Origin: Roseimaritima multifibrata
GTDB lineage: Bacteria > Planctomycetota > Planctomycetia > Pirellulales > Pirellulaceae
DNA: 64,000 bases
Reading direction: 5' to 3'
Assembly: GCF_007741495.1 (NCBI RefSeq)
Contig: NZ_CP036262.1
Span: 992,001-1,056,000 of the forward strand
Made by a program: the position numbers and the translations under genes. Below, piece after piece: positions 2,274 through 8,681 of the stretch; position 1 is the stretch's first letter; every line of letters begins with the position of its first letter. The notes beneath the pieces were generated by a model. It saw only the letters and a list, made by a program, of their open reading frames with translations. It was not told where the DNA came from and ran no database searches.

Positions 2274-3152
2274 CTACAGAATCCTGCGGAGCAGATCTGG
2301 GTTGCGAACGGCTTCGTAACTTCCCAGTGTCGTTCCCGCCGTCAAATCATCCGCCGACATTTCTTCAAGCACTCGGTCCGCCTGGTCGGCGCCGGTTTGA
2401 AGCCGATGCAACCACAGCGATTTCATCATCCCATGGGAATCGAATAGGTCGGGACGTAGGCAAAGCATTACCGCTTCGGTGACCTGGCGATTGCATGCCG
2501 GGAGGGCGGGGGCGTTGCTGCAACGCCGCATCAAGGCGTCACGCATGGTGGCAGACGTCAACCAGTTGGCGGTGTCGCGGGCTGCGCCGGCTGGCAGAAG
2601 TCGAGCATCGTTCGCATGGGCTGCGGCACGTCGCTGGTTGATGGCGTATTCGAGTGGTTCTGGAAAGTGGGCCCCCATCGATCCGAGAAGCACGTCCGTC
2701 CAGCGTTCGACTTCGGTTCGCAAGCGATTCAGCCGGACCGCTTCGTCGACGCGGCCGCCACGACCGTGGACCATCAGATTCAAGACGCGAAAGCGGACTT
2801 CGATATGGGTTAAATGAACGGAATGGGCAATCGGTTTGATTTCGGACTTCGCACACTCACGGTCCAGGCCGGATGCAAGCGCCGCGTAGACTCGTGTCAA
2901 ACATTCCGTGACCAGAACCTCTTCTAGCAAAGGGATATGGTCGTCCCACCATTGTCGCAGTTCGATCGTGTGGCCACTTTCTTCGATTCGCCGATAGCGT
3001 CCGATCGCGTGATGCCAAAGGTCAAACCGGTTGCGAGCCGCCGTCCAGTATTTCGTCATCGCTTCGGTGGGCAGCATGGAGCGATGGTAAAGCAGCCCTG
3101 GCCCGTGATGGGCGACGACAGCAGCAAGTTCGGCAGTATTAATGCAGTGCAT
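2274..3152 (-). CDS. Protein of unknown function, 292 aa
   Basis: I do not recognise a family. The predicted product is soluble, with no signal peptide and no transmembrane stretch. It is mostly helical in appearance, rich in Arg, Leu and His, and begins MHCINTAELAAVVAHHGPG. Coding is supported by the uninterrupted length, by codon third positions rich in G/C like its neighbours, and by the 110-bp gap to the MFS gene upstream of which it lies on the same strand. Several overlapping plus-strand reading frames in this stretch look like shadows. Function cannot be assigned. Confidence 0.7.
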   Translation of the reverse strand: MHCINTAELAAVVAHHGPGLLYHRSMLPTEAMTKYWTAARNRFDLWHHAIGRYRRIEESGHTIELRQWWDDHIPLLEEVLVTECLTRVYAALASGLDRECAKSEIKPIAHSVHLTHIEVRFRVLNLMVHGRGGRVDEAVRLNRLRTEVERWTDVLLGSMGAHFPEPLEYAINQRRAAAHANDARLLPAGAARDTANWLTSATMRDALMRRCSNAPALPACNRQVTEAVMLCLRPDLFDSHGMMKSLWLHRLQTGADQADRVLEEMSADDLTAGTTLGSYEAVRNPDLLRRIL

Positions 3153-3481
3153 GGTGTGTGATGCTCGTGAGCCATGAAGCGATGCGGGTTTGCGAGAATT
3201 GCGACGCTAAGTTTTCTCGCTCTTTCATTGCATCGCACTCACTGTGCCAGAGCCTTGGTCCATGATCTGTCTGAGTCTGTAAGTCATTGTTGTGAAGTGA
3301 CTTAGCGCGGCTGGGTGGGTCCGCGGCGTTTGGGAAGTGTGGCGTCAGGGCAGCGGTTCACGATGCGAAAAAACAACATGCGATACCATTCTTGGCTTTT
3401 CGAAACGGTTCGCTCTTGTTCCCGATCGTCGGCAATCAGTATGCTCGCAGGCAGGAGGGGCCCTTCGCGGCCGGTATCACT
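3153..3481. other. Intergenic region between divergent genes, with one small hairpin
   Basis: About 330 bases separate the minus-strand unknown gene from the plus-strand TPR gene. Promoters for both should lie here, but I cannot place a convincing -35/-10 pair. A hairpin with 7-bp arms (TAAGTCA at 3280-3286 and TGACTTA at 3298-3304) is visible; its role is unknown. Confidence 0.4.
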
Positions 3482-5446
3482 ATGCGCAAGGAAGCGTCGA
3501 TTCATTGCAAGCTGTTATTTCTATGGGGATGGTGCGCCATCCTGATAGCTCCGGTAGCGTTCGCGCAAAGCACGGATCTGAACGGGAGGTTGCAGCAAGG
3601 TTTGCAGCAACTGGCTGCAAAGGATTACGCGCAGGCCCACCAAACCCTGCAGCACTACATTGATTCGATCCCCAGCGACGAATCCGCCGCGCAAGCGTAT
3701 CAGCCCTATCTGTTGCAAGCGACGATGGCGAACGGAAAAGCCTTGACGCGTTTGGGGCAACACGAAGATGCCCTGAAGCAATACCTGGCAGCCATCGAAT
3801 GGGCGCCGAAGAATTTTGATCGAACCCCTCTGCAGTTGACGGCAGCCGATGCGGCATACCGTTGCCAGCAATGGGATCAGGGGGCCAGCCTTAGTCAGCA
3901 GGTCCTGGATACCGCTGAGGATGCTCGCCGACTGGCGTTGGCTAGGCGCATCCTTGTCGCTTGTGAACTTGCGAATAAGCATCGTCAGCAAGCGTGGGAA
4001 GTCTTAAGCCAAGCTACCGAATCGGAGGCGGCTGGCCTTAGCGAATTTGCCAATCGGTTAGGTGCCGCCGCACTCGGTCAGAACGAAGTTGAGCTTGCAT
4101 CCAAGGCGTATGGCTGGATCCTCCAATATCCAACCGACGAAGAATTGCAGCGCAAAGCGAATTTAGGATTCGCCTGGGCAGCCGCTCTGGGGGCAGCCCC
4201 TCCCGATGAAGCAGCCGCTTTGCTGATGGGCTTTGCCGACCAATATCCAGAAGGGGAAGATGCTTCGCGAGCGCTTCGTGCGGCCGCGACCTGTTGGAAT
4301 CAGGCGGGAGAGCCCGAGCAGGGGAATGCCTGTTTGCAGCAGATCATCGATTCCGTGAATGCCACCGATTCGGCTCCGCTCAGCCCGGTCGTGGTGGCGG
4401 CGGCAGAAACTTTGTCGGCGAATCCTCAAACCGCCGATCAAGAGGGACTTCGCTCGATCAGGAAACGATTATTCGTCACGCGGGACTCAAGTGACAATCC
4501 AATCCCCGCTTCGCTTATTGCGGCCAGCATCGTGGATGCGGCCCTGGAAAATGATGAATCGGCTTGGCAGCGATCGACGTTAGCGGCAGAACGTCATCCT
4601 GACGCGGGTGAAATCATGGCAGCGACCCTGAAACGTTTGAGCCAGCAAGGGGCGGACGCCGATGCAGAGCGTCTTGCCGCTTACCTGCTGCAGAAATTAT
4701 CAAGCACAGATCCAGATGCTAGCATCCAGGGCAAAACGATCGAAGCGGCTTGTCGCTGGGCTGCGGAATCAGGAAAGTGGAGTTTGTTGGCGTTGGCGGC
4801 AGAAGATGTCGATACGGTGGATGTGGCAGCCCGATTGCCTTCCGCTGGAATTCGATTGCTAGCGGAGGCCCTAATCCAAACACGGCGTGCTGCGGCGGCG
4901 AAGCGATGGTTCGATGCGGCGGTTACCGCAGGAGCCGATGACTTCCCGACTTTGGTTCGTCGAGCCGAACTTTCGGTCGCGATGGACGACTTGACCGACG
5001 CCGACAAGAACTTGCGGGCCGCGGTGGAAGCGGCTGGACCGGAGGACGACACGACGCTGGTCGAAGTCCTGCAAGCCGAACTGTTGATACGTCGGGCGAG
5101 GCTGGAAGAGGCACGTGTTGGTCTTGAGCGAATTGTTCGAATGGACACGGCCGCGGGCCCGGTTCGTTGTCGAGCCCAATGGTTGATCGGTGAAACCTTT
5201 TTATTGCAACAACGCTACTCCGAAGCGATTGATGCCTACCGGATCGTGGAAACCCTTGACAGCCCGCCAGGCAACTGGACGGCCGTCGCGTTGGTTCAAG
5301 CAGGGAAGTCTTTTGAAAAATTGGGGAGGCATCGAGACGCCGCAACTTGTTACAGCGGTCTCTTGCAACGCTTCGCCGACAGCGAACACGCTTTGGTTGC
5401 GAGAGATCGACTAGCGGTGATTGGGGCAGACACCCAACGTCGTTGA
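3482..5446 (+). CDS. Exported tetratricopeptide-repeat protein
   Basis: I chose the ATG at 3482 rather than the longer frame from 3392, because from 3482 the product (654 aa) begins with a standard signal peptide: MRKEA, a hydrophobic core containing LLFLWGWCAIL, and a probable cleavage after VAFA. The remainder is a chain of helical TPR-like pairs, with a clear repeat at residues about 22-50 (AAKDYAQAHQTLQHYI), another at AEWAP-type helices, and repeats near the C-terminus (YSEAIDAYRI, GRHRDAATCYSGLLQRF). Such proteins are periplasmic scaffolds. It is followed by exbB-like, exbD-like and cyclase-fold genes on the same strand, 54 bp away, so it probably belongs to that envelope system. Confidence 0.85.
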   Translation: MRKEASIHCKLLFLWGWCAILIAPVAFAQSTDLNGRLQQGLQQLAAKDYAQAHQTLQHYIDSIPSDESAAQAYQPYLLQATMANGKALTRLGQHEDALKQYLAAIEWAPKNFDRTPLQLTAADAAYRCQQWDQGASLSQQVLDTAEDARRLALARRILVACELANKHRQQAWEVLSQATESEAAGLSEFANRLGAAALGQNEVELASKAYGWILQYPTDEELQRKANLGFAWAAALGAAPPDEAAALLMGFADQYPEGEDASRALRAAATCWNQAGEPEQGNACLQQIIDSVNATDSAPLSPVVVAAAETLSANPQTADQEGLRSIRKRLFVTRDSSDNPIPASLIAASIVDAALENDESAWQRSTLAAERHPDAGEIMAATLKRLSQQGADADAERLAAYLLQKLSSTDPDASIQGKTIEAACRWAAESGKWSLLALAAEDVDTVDVAARLPSAGIRLLAEALIQTRRAAAAKRWFDAAVTAGADDFPTLVRRAELSVAMDDLTDADKNLRAAVEAAGPEDDTTLVEVLQAELLIRRARLEEARVGLERIVRMDTAAGPVRCRAQWLIGETFLLQQRYSEAIDAYRIVETLDSPPGNWTAVALVQAGKSFEKLGRHRDAATCYSGLLQRFADSEHALVARDRLAVIGADTQRR

Positions 5447-5500
5447 AACATCCTTCGCCTGTCCGATTACGATTCCAAATCAACATAATTTCGCACTAAT

Positions 5501-6448
5501 ATGTTAGCCAATCTCTGCTGCTGCACGCCGCTTGCCACGCTTTCGTTTAGATCGCGAATGTCGATCTGTTTGTTGTTGCTAGGCATTGCAGCCGCTCCGG
5601 TTCATGCCCAGTATCCCGCGCCCCCTTCCGGCCCTATTTCGATGCCCAGTCAGTCGGGGCGAATGCAAATGGGGGGAAGTGGTGTGACACAACCGGCTCC
5701 GATGATCCCGCAAACTGGCGTTCCCGCAGCCGCCGAACCGGTGGCTGGCGAAGAAGCGGTGGACGCGGAGGCTTCGGCAATGCCTGCGTTTGTGCAGCGA
5801 TTGACCGAGGGGGGGCTGTTGATGATTCCCCTGGGAATTTGTTCGCTGATCGTTTTCGCATTGTCGCTGGAACGCTTGGTGGCGCTCCGCCGTGGGCGGG
5901 TTATCCCTCGCCCGTTTGTGCGCCGATTCACAGAATGCGTTGAAGACGGCCAGTTAAGTTACGAGGAAGCCGCCCAGATTTGCGATGAATTCGACTGCCC
6001 TGTTGCAGAGGTTTTTCATGCGGCGATTAAACGTTGGGGCCGACCGGTTATCGAAATCGAACAAGCGGTTATGGATGCTGGAGATCGTGTTACCGATAGT
6101 TTGAGAAAATTCTTGCGGGTGTTTCACGCGATCAGCAATGTGGCTCCGCTGCTGGGATTGTTGGGGACCGTGCTGGGGATGATCGAAGCCTTTGACATGA
6201 TGGCATCCGAAGAATCGGTCGGGCGTCCCGAAATGTTGGCTTCGGGGATCAGTGTCGCTTTGTTGACAACCGCAGGTGGGCTGTCCGTCGCAATCCCCGC
6301 CTATCTGGCTTACATGTACTTCACCAGCAAAGCGGATCGTTACCTGGTCGAAATCGATAGCCTCTGTCAGAAAGTCATCGATTCGATCAGTGCAGAGGGC
6401 CTTGAATCGGGGTCAAGTCGCAGCCGTAAATCACGTCGAGCCGCCTAG
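5501..6448 (+). CDS. exbB: MotA/TolQ/ExbB-type proton channel protein with exported N-terminal extension
   Basis: The C-terminal two thirds match the ExbB/TolQ family, the pentameric proton-channel half of TonB-type energisers. TM1 is at about residues 104-122, followed by the basic stretch LRRGRVIPRP; TM2 is at about 213-232 (PLLGLLGTVLGMIEAF, the family signature) and TM3 at about 248-274 (SVALLTTAGGLSVAIPAY). Residues 1-36 form a signal peptide ending APVHA, then a 65-residue Pro/Gly/Gln-rich linker precedes TM1; this extension is absent from E. coli ExbB but common in planctomycete homologues. An internal ATG at 5558 could give a shorter signal peptide. The gene is followed by an exbD homologue. 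Confidence 0.92.
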   Translation: MLANLCCCTPLATLSFRSRMSICLLLLGIAAAPVHAQYPAPPSGPISMPSQSGRMQMGGSGVTQPAPMIPQTGVPAAAEPVAGEEAVDAEASAMPAFVQRLTEGGLLMIPLGICSLIVFALSLERLVALRRGRVIPRPFVRRFTECVEDGQLSYEEAAQICDEFDCPVAEVFHAAIKRWGRPVIEIEQAVMDAGDRVTDSLRKFLRVFHAISNVAPLLGLLGTVLGMIEAFDMMASEESVGRPEMLASGISVALLTTAGGLSVAIPAYLAYMYFTSKADRYLVEIDSLCQKVIDSISAEGLESGSSRSRKSRRAA

Positions 6449-6543
6449 TCTGAGCCGCGTGTTGGGTCCCTTAACGGTAAAGGTGTGGGGACCTCCTATT
6501 CGAATTTTATGTCACTTATCGTTTTGCCAAGTAAACCATTGCC

Positions 6544-6951
6544 ATGCGACGTCGATCTGCTGAAGAGGCGACTCTCAACCTGACGCCGATGATCGACGTT
6601 GTCTTTCTGTTGGTGATTTTTTTCATGGTGGGAGCGAAATTCACCGAACAAGAAAGTCAGATCCCGATCAATCTGCCCGGAGTCGGACAACTGAATCCGA
6701 TGGTGCGTGGTCCGGATCGCCGAACGGTCGATTTGACGCCAGATGGGCAGGTCACCTTAGATGGTCAGCCGGTCAGTCTTGCTCAGCTCCGTTCGGATCT
6801 CCAGGTGGCGCATGCTTCTTATCCTGATTTGCAAGTAAGTGTTCGAGCCGATGCCAGTGAATCACTCGCTCGGTTTACGGAAATCCTCCATGTCTGCCGC
6901 AGTAGTGGTGTCGAAAATTTAGGAATTGCAGTTCAACCTCAGCGACGTTGA
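6544..6951 (+). CDS. exbD: ExbD/TolR-type biopolymer transport protein
   Basis: The 135-residue product has the ExbD/TolR architecture: a short basic cytoplasmic head (MRRRSAEEA), one transmembrane helix at about residues 18-35, and a roughly 95-residue periplasmic domain. D18 in LTPMIDVVFLLVIFFM is the conserved protonatable aspartate. The periplasmic part retains the expected pattern (PINLPGV early, then LRSDLQVAHASYPDLQVSVR and VCRSSGVENLGIAV). It acts with the ExbB homologue 95 bp upstream to couple proton flow to a partner protein. It lies 14 bp before the next gene, whose product has a TonB-like anchor and is the natural partner. Confidence 0.93.
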   Translation: MRRRSAEEATLNLTPMIDVVFLLVIFFMVGAKFTEQESQIPINLPGVGQLNPMVRGPDRRTVDLTPDGQVTLDGQPVSLAQLRSDLQVAHASYPDLQVSVRADASESLARFTEILHVCRSSGVENLGIAVQPQRR

Positions 6952-6965
6952 GGCTTTAAATAAAT

Positions 6966-8681
6966 ATGTGGACCGACCCACGGGTTGTCTGGCCGATCGC
7001 CGGTGTTGCTATCATTCTGTTGATGGCAACCTGGTGGCTTATGCGCCGCGGTCGTCGCCGTCGTCCGCGGGCCGCTGCAATCTGTATCACGCTGTCCATT
7101 GTCCTGCACGGGCTGCTGTTTTGGCTGATGCCCTTGGTGACTCGGCCCGGTGGTGGAGCCCCTAAGGGGGCGGGGAATGAAGAGGTCCGTGTCGCGGACA
7201 TCACCCTCTCGGACCTGAGCGACGAACCGCTTGATGATCAATCCGGCGACGATCCGACATTGGCCATGGAGCCCCTGCCGGTTGCGCCGCCGGCACCGGT
7301 TGTCCCCGACGCGGAACCGGCCTCCCCTACCCCGCCATCTGTCGAAACCGATTTGACCGCACAGTTGGCTGAGGCTATCGACAGCCCGGAAGTCAGCTCG
7401 GATTTCGATACTGAATTCGATGCCGGCTTAGATGAAATGCTTGCTGCCTTGGAACTGGCGCAGACGGTGGCGGTTGATCAATCGCCCGCGGCAGGCGACG
7501 CACCCAATGCAGCCGCTTCGCCATCGGTTAAAGCGGATTCATCCGTTCAGGCAATCGCCGCTTCACAATCACAGGCACCCGCTTCCTCGCGGTCGACGCC
7601 GGCACAAGCGGCGTCCGCTCGCGTGGTTGCAGATCAAGAAGGAGATTTTGCCAATCGAACGGGTGAAGCCAAGCAGTCGGCTTTGAAGCAACTGGGCGGA
7701 GACGCGCAGACCGAAGCGGCTGTGGAGGCTGCCCTCCGCTGGTTGGCGTATTACCAACGTGCCGACGGATCGTGGGATGCGATCGCTAGTGGAGCCGGCC
7801 AGGAGCGTAAGGTGCTTGGAGAAACCCGTGCGGGCGCGGGGACTCGCGCTACTAACGCGATTACCGGTTTGGCCCTCCTGTCGATGTTAGGTAGCGGTAG
7901 CACGCATCGCGAAGGACCCTACGCCAACAACATTCATGCGGGGCTTAGCTATTTGATTCGCAACCAAGCCCCCAACGGGTCGCTGGCGGGACCGGCAACC
8001 CCGTTTGCACAAACCTATTGCCATGGGATGGCATCGCTGGCGCTCTGTGAAGCGGCAGCGATGACCAAAGATCCGCAAGCGATTGCAGCGGCGCGCGCCG
8101 CCGTTTCGTATACACAGCGACTGCAGCATCCAACCACAGGCGGTTGGCGTTATCGAGCAGGAGAAACGGGGGACACCAGTCAGCTTGGCTGGCAGGTCAT
8201 GATGCTTGATAGTGCACGGCAGGCGGACATACCCCTGGACCCGCGGACCCTTCCCCTGGCAAGTCATTTTTTACGCTCGGTTCGGCTCGGTTCGTATGGC
8301 GGTTTGGCATGCTACCGGACCGGTCATCCCGCTTCCAGAACGATGACCGCCGAAGCGTTGGCCATGCGATTGATGATCGGGGAACAGGTTCCAGCGTTGG
8401 AAGTTCAGGAGGCGGAACGTTATCTCTTGGAAGAGCTGCCGGGGACGGGGCAACCGAATCTGTATTACTGGTACTACGCTTCGTTGGCCTTGCACCAATT
8501 GCAAGATCCAGCGTGGGAGAAATGGAACCACCATCTCAAGCAAACGCTGCTGAAAAGCCAGCAAGCCGACGGTAGTTGGCCTACCGATTCGGTTTGGGGA
8601 GGCTACGGCGGACGCGTCTATACGACCGCGTTGGCAGCGCTTAGCCTAGAAGTCTACTATCGCCATCGCGTCGGGAAGTAG
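6966..8681 (+). CDS. Membrane-anchored squalene-cyclase-fold repeat protein with TonB-like anchor
   Basis: The 571-residue product has three parts. Two transmembrane helices (about 8-25 and 38-56) flank a very basic cytoplasmic loop (RRGRRRRPR). TM2 contains S44-IVL-H48-G, the S-x3-H spacing of the TonB transmembrane motif. Residues about 60-240 are a Pro/Ala/Ser-rich linker (PLPVAPPAPVVP). Residues about 245-571 are repeats of the terpenoid-cyclase/prenyltransferase alpha/alpha toroid with QW-like motifs (YQRADGSWD, QAPNGSL, TTGGWRY, QQADGSWPT) and the planctomycete end motif GGRVYTTALAALSLEVYYR. I see no DXDD protonating motif, so it is probably not a terpene cyclase. It follows exbD by 14 bp. 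The role of the toroid is unknown. Confidence 0.85.
   Translation: MWTDPRVVWPIAGVAIILLMATWWLMRRGRRRRPRAAAICITLSIVLHGLLFWLMPLVTRPGGGAPKGAGNEEVRVADITLSDLSDEPLDDQSGDDPTLAMEPLPVAPPAPVVPDAEPASPTPPSVETDLTAQLAEAIDSPEVSSDFDTEFDAGLDEMLAALELAQTVAVDQSPAAGDAPNAAASPSVKADSSVQAIAASQSQAPASSRSTPAQAASARVVADQEGDFANRTGEAKQSALKQLGGDAQTEAAVEAALRWLAYYQRADGSWDAIASGAGQERKVLGETRAGAGTRATNAITGLALLSMLGSGSTHREGPYANNIHAGLSYLIRNQAPNGSLAGPATPFAQTYCHGMASLALCEAAAMTKDPQAIAAARAAVSYTQRLQHPTTGGWRYRAGETGDTSQLGWQVMMLDSARQADIPLDPRTLPLASHFLRSVRLGSYGGLACYRTGHPASRTMTAEALAMRLMIGEQVPALEVQEAERYLLEELPGTGQPNLYYWYYASLALHQLQDPAWEKWNHHLKQTLLKSQQADGSWPTDSVWGGYGGRVYTTALAALSLEVYYRHRVGK

Follow-up and report, generated by a model that had tools for sequence, protein, structure and literature searches.

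To our knowledge, TonB and TolA were for a long time the only recognised tips of the ExbBD and TolQR motors. The two share a motif, Ser-3X-His-6X-Leu-3X-Ser (SHLS; PMC12905483), and in TonB a D-box strand, represented by peptide 43-54, binds ExbD (PMC10907165). In 2025, a survey of force transducers proposed a further class with vWA heads, many of them carrying SHLS anchors; in the Planctomycetes-Verrucomicrobia-Chlamydiae (PVC) group, it places their genes often behind TPR-tolQ-tolR-tolR (PMC12204202). Here we describe an operon from a 64,000-nucleotide stretch of the genome of the planctomycete Roseimaritima multifibrata (contig NZ_CP036262.1, positions 992,001 to 1,056,000; referred to as the window, and numbered from its first nucleotide), in which the last gene encodes a membrane anchor and a linker followed by a toroid of the squalene-cyclase fold. 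Judged from sequences and structure models, the operon probably specifies a force transducer akin to TonB and TolA that is driven by protons and bears a new head, that is, a Ton/Tol-like envelope machine. It is best read as a sibling of the published vWA transducers and as neither TonB nor TolA.

The operon spans positions 3482-8681 and consists of four genes on the plus strand that are separated by 54, 95 and 14 bp. They encode a TPR protein (3482..5446, 654 amino acids, ATG start; Pfam TPR_8, 2.2e-8), an ExbB/TolQ-like motor subunit (5501..6448, 315 amino acids; Pfam MotA_ExbB PF01618, 8.6e-28), an ExbD/TolR-like motor subunit (6544..6951, 135 amino acids; Pfam ExbD PF02472, 4.7e-27) and the anchor-linker-toroid protein (6966..8681, 571 amino acids), the last of which is supported by the open reading frame (ORF) call, family profiles, AlphaFold2 and fold neighbours. 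Both the gene set and its order had been proposed by a first-pass annotation of the DNA and were confirmed by the ORFs and the Pfam matches. The same was true of its description of the last protein. AlphaFold2 placed two helices at the N-terminus (residues 5-28, 6978..7049, and residues 33-59, 7062..7142), of which the second, a TonB-like anchor by model and hydropathy, is preceded by a basic loop and carries S44-x3-H48-G49. The motif S44-x3-H48 lies at 7095..7109 (S44 codon, 7095-7097; H48-G49 codons, 7107-7112). A disordered, Pro-containing linker (residues 61-228, 7146..7649) and an alpha/alpha toroid (residues 231-570, 7656..8675) follow, and the toroid contains no DXDD.

The fusion and the gene order recur in other planctomycete genomes. 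While a single-protein scan of genome contigs returned no relative, a scan with an 11-row profile of ExbD-linked toroid proteins, in which no motor sequence took part, yielded 80 named loci, which are the top-scoring ones among at least 544 relatives and all planctomycetes by title. Among the 76 loci with enough contig, ExbD was located within 600 bp upstream of the toroid gene in 75, and both ExbB and ExbD stood beside it in 73; at L093, ExbD lies 669 bp upstream and hence outside this limit. The adjacency of motor and toroid genes is more than chance. Since the profile rows were picked as ExbD-linked, these counts describe the linked clade and not the whole toroid family. The family itself is widespread: at E<=1e-20, the window protein had matches in 95 of the 118 phylum genomes sampled (anchorless toroids included), and the 11-row profile had matches at E<=1e-60 in 120/120 genomes and 40/40 genera of a single planctomycete family, that of the window (paralogues included; 95% completeness required and at most 7 candidates scored per genome).

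The first-pass annotation had regarded a toroid gene found mainly without exbB/exbD as a case against coupling. This does describe the family as a whole, but not the window clade, in which 75/76 loci are linked. The 12 toroid places in this genome comprise 2 that are motor-linked, 4 that are anchored without a nearby motor gene and 6 without such an anchor, and an ExbD-linked toroid was present in 12 of 40 phylum regions (taken from the upper part of the matches listed, and therefore leaning to closer relatives; several reach contig ends). As the window clade is nearly always linked and motorless paralogues keep the motif, the motorless majority is not a refutation. In a quick tree of 75 chosen rows, for which every fourth ExbD-linked named locus was taken, the ExbD-linked toroids cluster (3 label changes against a shuffled mean of 24.8, with 0/500 shuffles as low) and the window clade forms a group of 28 rows with support 95.

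Conservation of the anchor was analysed in an alignment of 76 sequences, namely the window protein and 75 of the 80 named loci. The called ORFs of the other five (L076, L093, L101, L127, L133) have no anchor; four of them start at a contig edge, and that of L093 is short. His48 is invariant (76/76) and is the sole invariant residue within the first 225, while position 44 is Ser in 66 sequences and Ala in 10. Sharing of S-x3-H by homologues had been set beforehand as a test, and the motif was kept in these orthologues as well as in the paralogues described below. This position-specific conservation rules out a chance occurrence of S-x3-H. The TonB spacing claimed for the motif likewise stood. 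The suggested check of S44 and H48 facing ExbD D18 is not the apt one, since the Ser and His of the TonB/TolA motif are reported to contact transmembrane helix 1 (TM1) of ExbB/TolQ (PMC12905483). Ser occupies position 15 of ExbD in all ten S44A relatives and in 12 of the 67 others. The S44A rows were seen to covary with ExbD P15S and V20L in a manner indistinguishable from clade effects, and coupling may differ in this clade.

The 168 residues of the linker include 20 Pro, 33 Ala and 31 acidic residues, and the predicted local distance difference test (pLDDT) score of residues 60-224 is mostly <50; across the relatives, the linker has a median length of 234 residues and contains 15.6% Pro. Approximately 25 residues past the His, an alternating hydrophobic strand pattern occurs in 59 of the 76 sequences and starts exactly at H+25 in 38. 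The same pattern was found in 192 of 11713 other linker windows, and 200 shuffles gave a mean of 11 and a maximum of 18 of 76. With His20 as reference, H+25/27/29 are the positions of I45, V47 and M49 in the peptide of E. coli TonB (PMC10907165). The candidate D-box strand of the window protein, V74-L81 (VRVADITL, 7185..7208), is irregular.

These features bear on the possibility that the toroid protein is an assembly or scaffold protein, serving the motor as stator, plug or assembly factor and passing no force across the periplasm. Such a role would be in line with the finding that the ExbD and toroid genes adjoin even where ExbB does not; moreover, no partner is known, and helix 1 is absent from TonB and TolA, which have a single helix (PMC12905483). 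Nevertheless, the parts of a transducer are present: Ser and His are spaced as in TonB, the linker is long, and most relatives have a strand where the D-box would lie. Paralogues without a motor also retain the motif. We therefore consider a scaffold very unlikely.

In the motor, the membrane aspartate D18 of ExbD is kept in 77/77 aligned sequences, and the ExbB residues T223, T257 and TM3 P266 are kept in 74/75, 75/75 and 75/75, respectively; S115 in TM1 is kept in 73/75, the remaining two being gaps. Because these residues are conserved, we infer that the ExbB-like and ExbD-like proteins form a motor. Their naming in the first-pass annotation was right as to the type of motor but not as to its closest kind, as the NCBIfam scores are nearer to TolQ (5.5e-25, versus 5.6e-13 for exbB) and TolR (6.5e-13, versus 1.5e-8 for ExbD), all of them under the equivalog cut-offs. 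The ExbB-like proteins were also seen to have long N-terminal extensions (median 82 residues ahead of TM1, with uncurated ORF starts), and that of the window (5501-5800) opens with a signal-like segment. The TPR protein has tol_pal_ybgF/CpoB as its nearest NCBIfam model, under the cut-off, and is probably periplasmic, since its N-terminus appears signal-like by eye. Homologues of the same single-linkage cluster are encoded upstream on the same strand in 57 of 81 sequences (the 80 loci and the window), and direct phmmer detected one in 31 of 65 loci with room. Beyond the four genes, recurrences are weak (for instance, 17 of the 81 sequences have a TatA-like gene downstream) and probably reflect synteny rather than function.

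The best scores of both motor subunits and of the TPR protein against TolQ, TolR and YbgF models would also suit a stand-in for Tol-Pal, a special case of the force transducer in which the same motor mechanism holds or constricts the outer membrane. No TolB_N was found above the cut-off in this genome, and the presence of the toroid family in every genome of the family sample is like that of a housekeeping part. However, a TolB that lacks the Pfam N domain could escape detection, and the genome does encode an OmpA-domain protein (L157) in which a lipobox-like sequence is present. A Tol-Pal stand-in thus appears unlikely.

The C-terminal 340 residues of the window protein were modelled as a helical toroid, with the blocks from 231 to 560 at pLDDT 91-99 except for 281-290 (71). 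Its match to Pfam SQHop_cyclase_C lies just below the cut-off (6.1e-6; 25.9 bits versus 26.1) and that to NCBIfam squalene_cyclas far below (4.9e-10), and when the single sequence was run against the PDB with phmmer, the only match was at chance level (0.28). No match to Pfam TonB_C was obtained up to E 1, and the toroid head rules out a canonical TonB. Enzymes make up most of the listed fold neighbours (squalene-hopene cyclases, AprG, sugar epimerases, GH76), which could suggest a membrane-tethered enzyme whose toroid catalyses terpenoid or sugar chemistry and is merely positioned by its linkage to the motor. Such an enzyme would also accord with the seven residues that are invariant in the 76 sequences (H353, E362, R395, D403, E463, Y503 and Y504) and with the distribution of the 24 toroid-helix residues that are >=97% identical, of which 22 belong to one alternating helix set (112 residues) and 2 to the other (72). 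Such a bias would be expected if the residues that line the central cavity are conserved. Against catalysis stand the absence of DXDD from the window protein and the Gly found in 76/76 sequences at position 402, which we match by eye to the middle Asp of DXDD. At the place so matched, 61 of the 76 sequences have D-x-G-D, and the two that contain D-x-D-D have it in a Q-x-x-D-G loop. In addition, an enzyme would have no need of the S/H anchor and the strand. The missing DXDD argues for binding or a different chemistry over class II cyclisation. Terpene cyclase was accordingly ruled out as a catalytic identity and kept as a fold, and a tethered enzyme seems highly improbable. The conserved cavity instead suggests that the head of the transducer binds a ligand or peptide and does not act by strand addition as TonB and TolA do.

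Of 55 toroid proteins from this genome and the phylum loci, 36 carry a hydrophobic anchor that contains a His, and the residue at His-4 is Ser in 34 and Ala in 2 (counts that leave out L050, A-x3-H, and L057, S-x3-H, which were seen by eye; L012 is under the threshold of the toroid hidden Markov model). Twelve of these anchors, including both with Ala, are ExbD-linked, and the other 24 all have Ser. Toroid paralogues without a motor of their own probably plug into motors encoded elsewhere. An anchor-only search of the genome recovered the four motorless toroids from which the profile had been built and, as weak extra matches, two S-x3-H proteins with vWA (E 0.0056 and 0.0099; the vWA match of L153 passes the Pfam cut-off and that of L152 falls short of it). 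At the level of sequence, this is consistent with a single anchor code shared by several heads. Both proteins (L152, 715-2430, minus; L153, 592-1653, minus) have an anchor of the P-x-W-x-x-S-x3-H style, and no ExbB/ExbD match was found near either of them.

Several other arrangements of toroid genes were observed. A second TPR-ExbB-ExbD-toroid operon of this genome (L013, G000:C1:6445000-6456000; toroid gene 2744-5419, minus) encodes an 891-amino-acid transducer with A-x3-H and a linker far longer than that of the window protein. Beside it (L019, 2170-5558, plus), genes for a 479-amino-acid MotA/ExbB-like protein and then a 650-amino-acid protein with an N-terminal helix form another, unusual motor-like pair. 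The anchored toroid at L003 (1456-3438, minus) has an extra N-terminal multi-helix membrane domain, which by eye resembles a stand-alone protein at L018 (8427-8954). In another genome, three toroid genes stand in tandem (L056, G033:C39, 6355-13274); two of them encode an S-x3-H anchor and the third does not.

A number of observations weigh against a force transducer of the TonB/TolA type. The 80 named loci lean to the ExbD-linked clade owing to the choice of profile rows, and 8 of the 12 ExbD-linked phylum regions (L021, L023, L024, L025, L026, L029, L034, L049) have no adjoining ExbB, so that ExbB may be shared, and is presumably encoded elsewhere, where only ExbD adjoins the toroid. The orthologues do not retain Leu+7 and Ser+11 of SHLS and mostly have Ala at +7 (M55 and T59 in the window protein); both are present in the motorless paralogues L002 and L004. 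Searched against the PDB, anchor-only profiles retrieved neither TonB nor TolA at E<=10; anchor homology was thus not detected by profile search, and the resemblance is one of motif and spacing without significant sequence similarity. The full profile did match TolA (0.0024) and TonB (0.068), yet a better score (0.0012) went to an unrelated cilia protein, and these matches may therefore reflect linker composition. The strand of the window protein is one of the 17 of 76 that fail the strict pattern; the near relatives L068 and L069 fail as well and have V-x-V-x-V about 7 residues further on, and 7 of the 10 S44A rows (L089, L120, L126, L141, L143, L145, L147) are without a regular strand. Finally, a TM1 Trp is named in the motor subunit (PMC12905483), and any Trp at this position occurs in only 5 of 75 ExbB-like proteins.

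In the force transducer that we favour, the ExbB-like and ExbD-like proteins would make up a proton-driven motor on which helix 2 of the toroid protein docks via S44/H48, and the short strand past helix 2 would be captured by the periplasmic domain of ExbD. Most likely, the motor takes hold of the anchor and the strand and exerts a pull on the linker, as in the Ton and Tol systems, a direction of force that we infer; the wrap-and-pull model has itself been called largely speculative (PMC12905483). The linker would convey force to the toroid, which would grip a partner that is either periplasmic or located at the outer membrane and may serve as a sensor or cargo ring, as the first-pass annotation had suggested. 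The TPR protein would be an accessory.

A toroid class would widen the range of loads for ExbBD/TolQR motors. One possible role is macromolecule uptake dependent on the proton motive force. Dextran uptake by Gemmata obscuriglobus stopped on collapse of the proton gradient, with 0/816 cells positive after treatment with carbonyl cyanide m-chlorophenyl hydrazone (CCCP) versus 23% of 1,065, and the sections of that report drawn on here name no motor (PMC5394234). The operon could supply concrete genes for this open question. A more far-reaching proposal, which we offer tentatively and hold to be rather doubtful, is that a third, modular class of proton motive force transducers evolved in planctomycetes. 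In this class, a terpene-cyclase-fold ring, and not a strand-adding domain, would directly grip envelope cargo, the interchangeable toroid, vWA and TonB_C heads would draw on a common pool of motors via one anchor code, and the system would power envelope work peculiar to the phylum, such as CCCP-sensitive macromolecule uptake.

No description of a toroid-headed transducer was found in the open-licence PubMed Central (PMC) literature, nor any paper there combining planctomycet, prenyltransferase and squalene oxidase repeat. The terms squalene, terpenoid and toroid are absent from the main text of the 2025 survey (PMC12204202), and TolQ, TonB, biopolymer, prenyltransferase and Tol-Pal from that of an essential-gene paper (PMC10632474). 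As no toroid head appeared in the literature searched, we rate the toroid-headed transducer as new, within a known type of transducer.

With TonB-ExbBD, the window system shares the motor genes alongside, the S-x3-H anchor helix and the Pro-containing linker, and many relatives, though not the window protein in regular form, have the strand at H+25/27/29; it differs in having two N-terminal helices instead of one, a toroid in place of TonB_C, and a TPR gene. Elsewhere, this genome encodes a canonical TonB (L060) together with three TonB-dependent receptor plugs, and ordinary Ton work is therefore probably covered there. TolA-TolQR is resembled in the motor, which scores nearer to TolQR, and in the TPR gene, nearest to the YbgF/CpoB model, whereas the TolA C-terminal domain and the TolB and Pal genes are missing from the operon. 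With squalene-hopene and other class II terpene cyclases, the window protein has the predicted alpha/alpha toroid fold in common, but it is without DXDD and consists of a single toroid that is membrane-anchored and motor-linked. The vWA-type transducers, as described in the 2025 survey (PMC12204202), share with it the TPR-motor-transducer order, an SHLS-type anchor, a disordered linker and a non-TonB head, and differ in that the head of the window protein is a toroid without vWA and that its operon has one ExbD in place of a pair.

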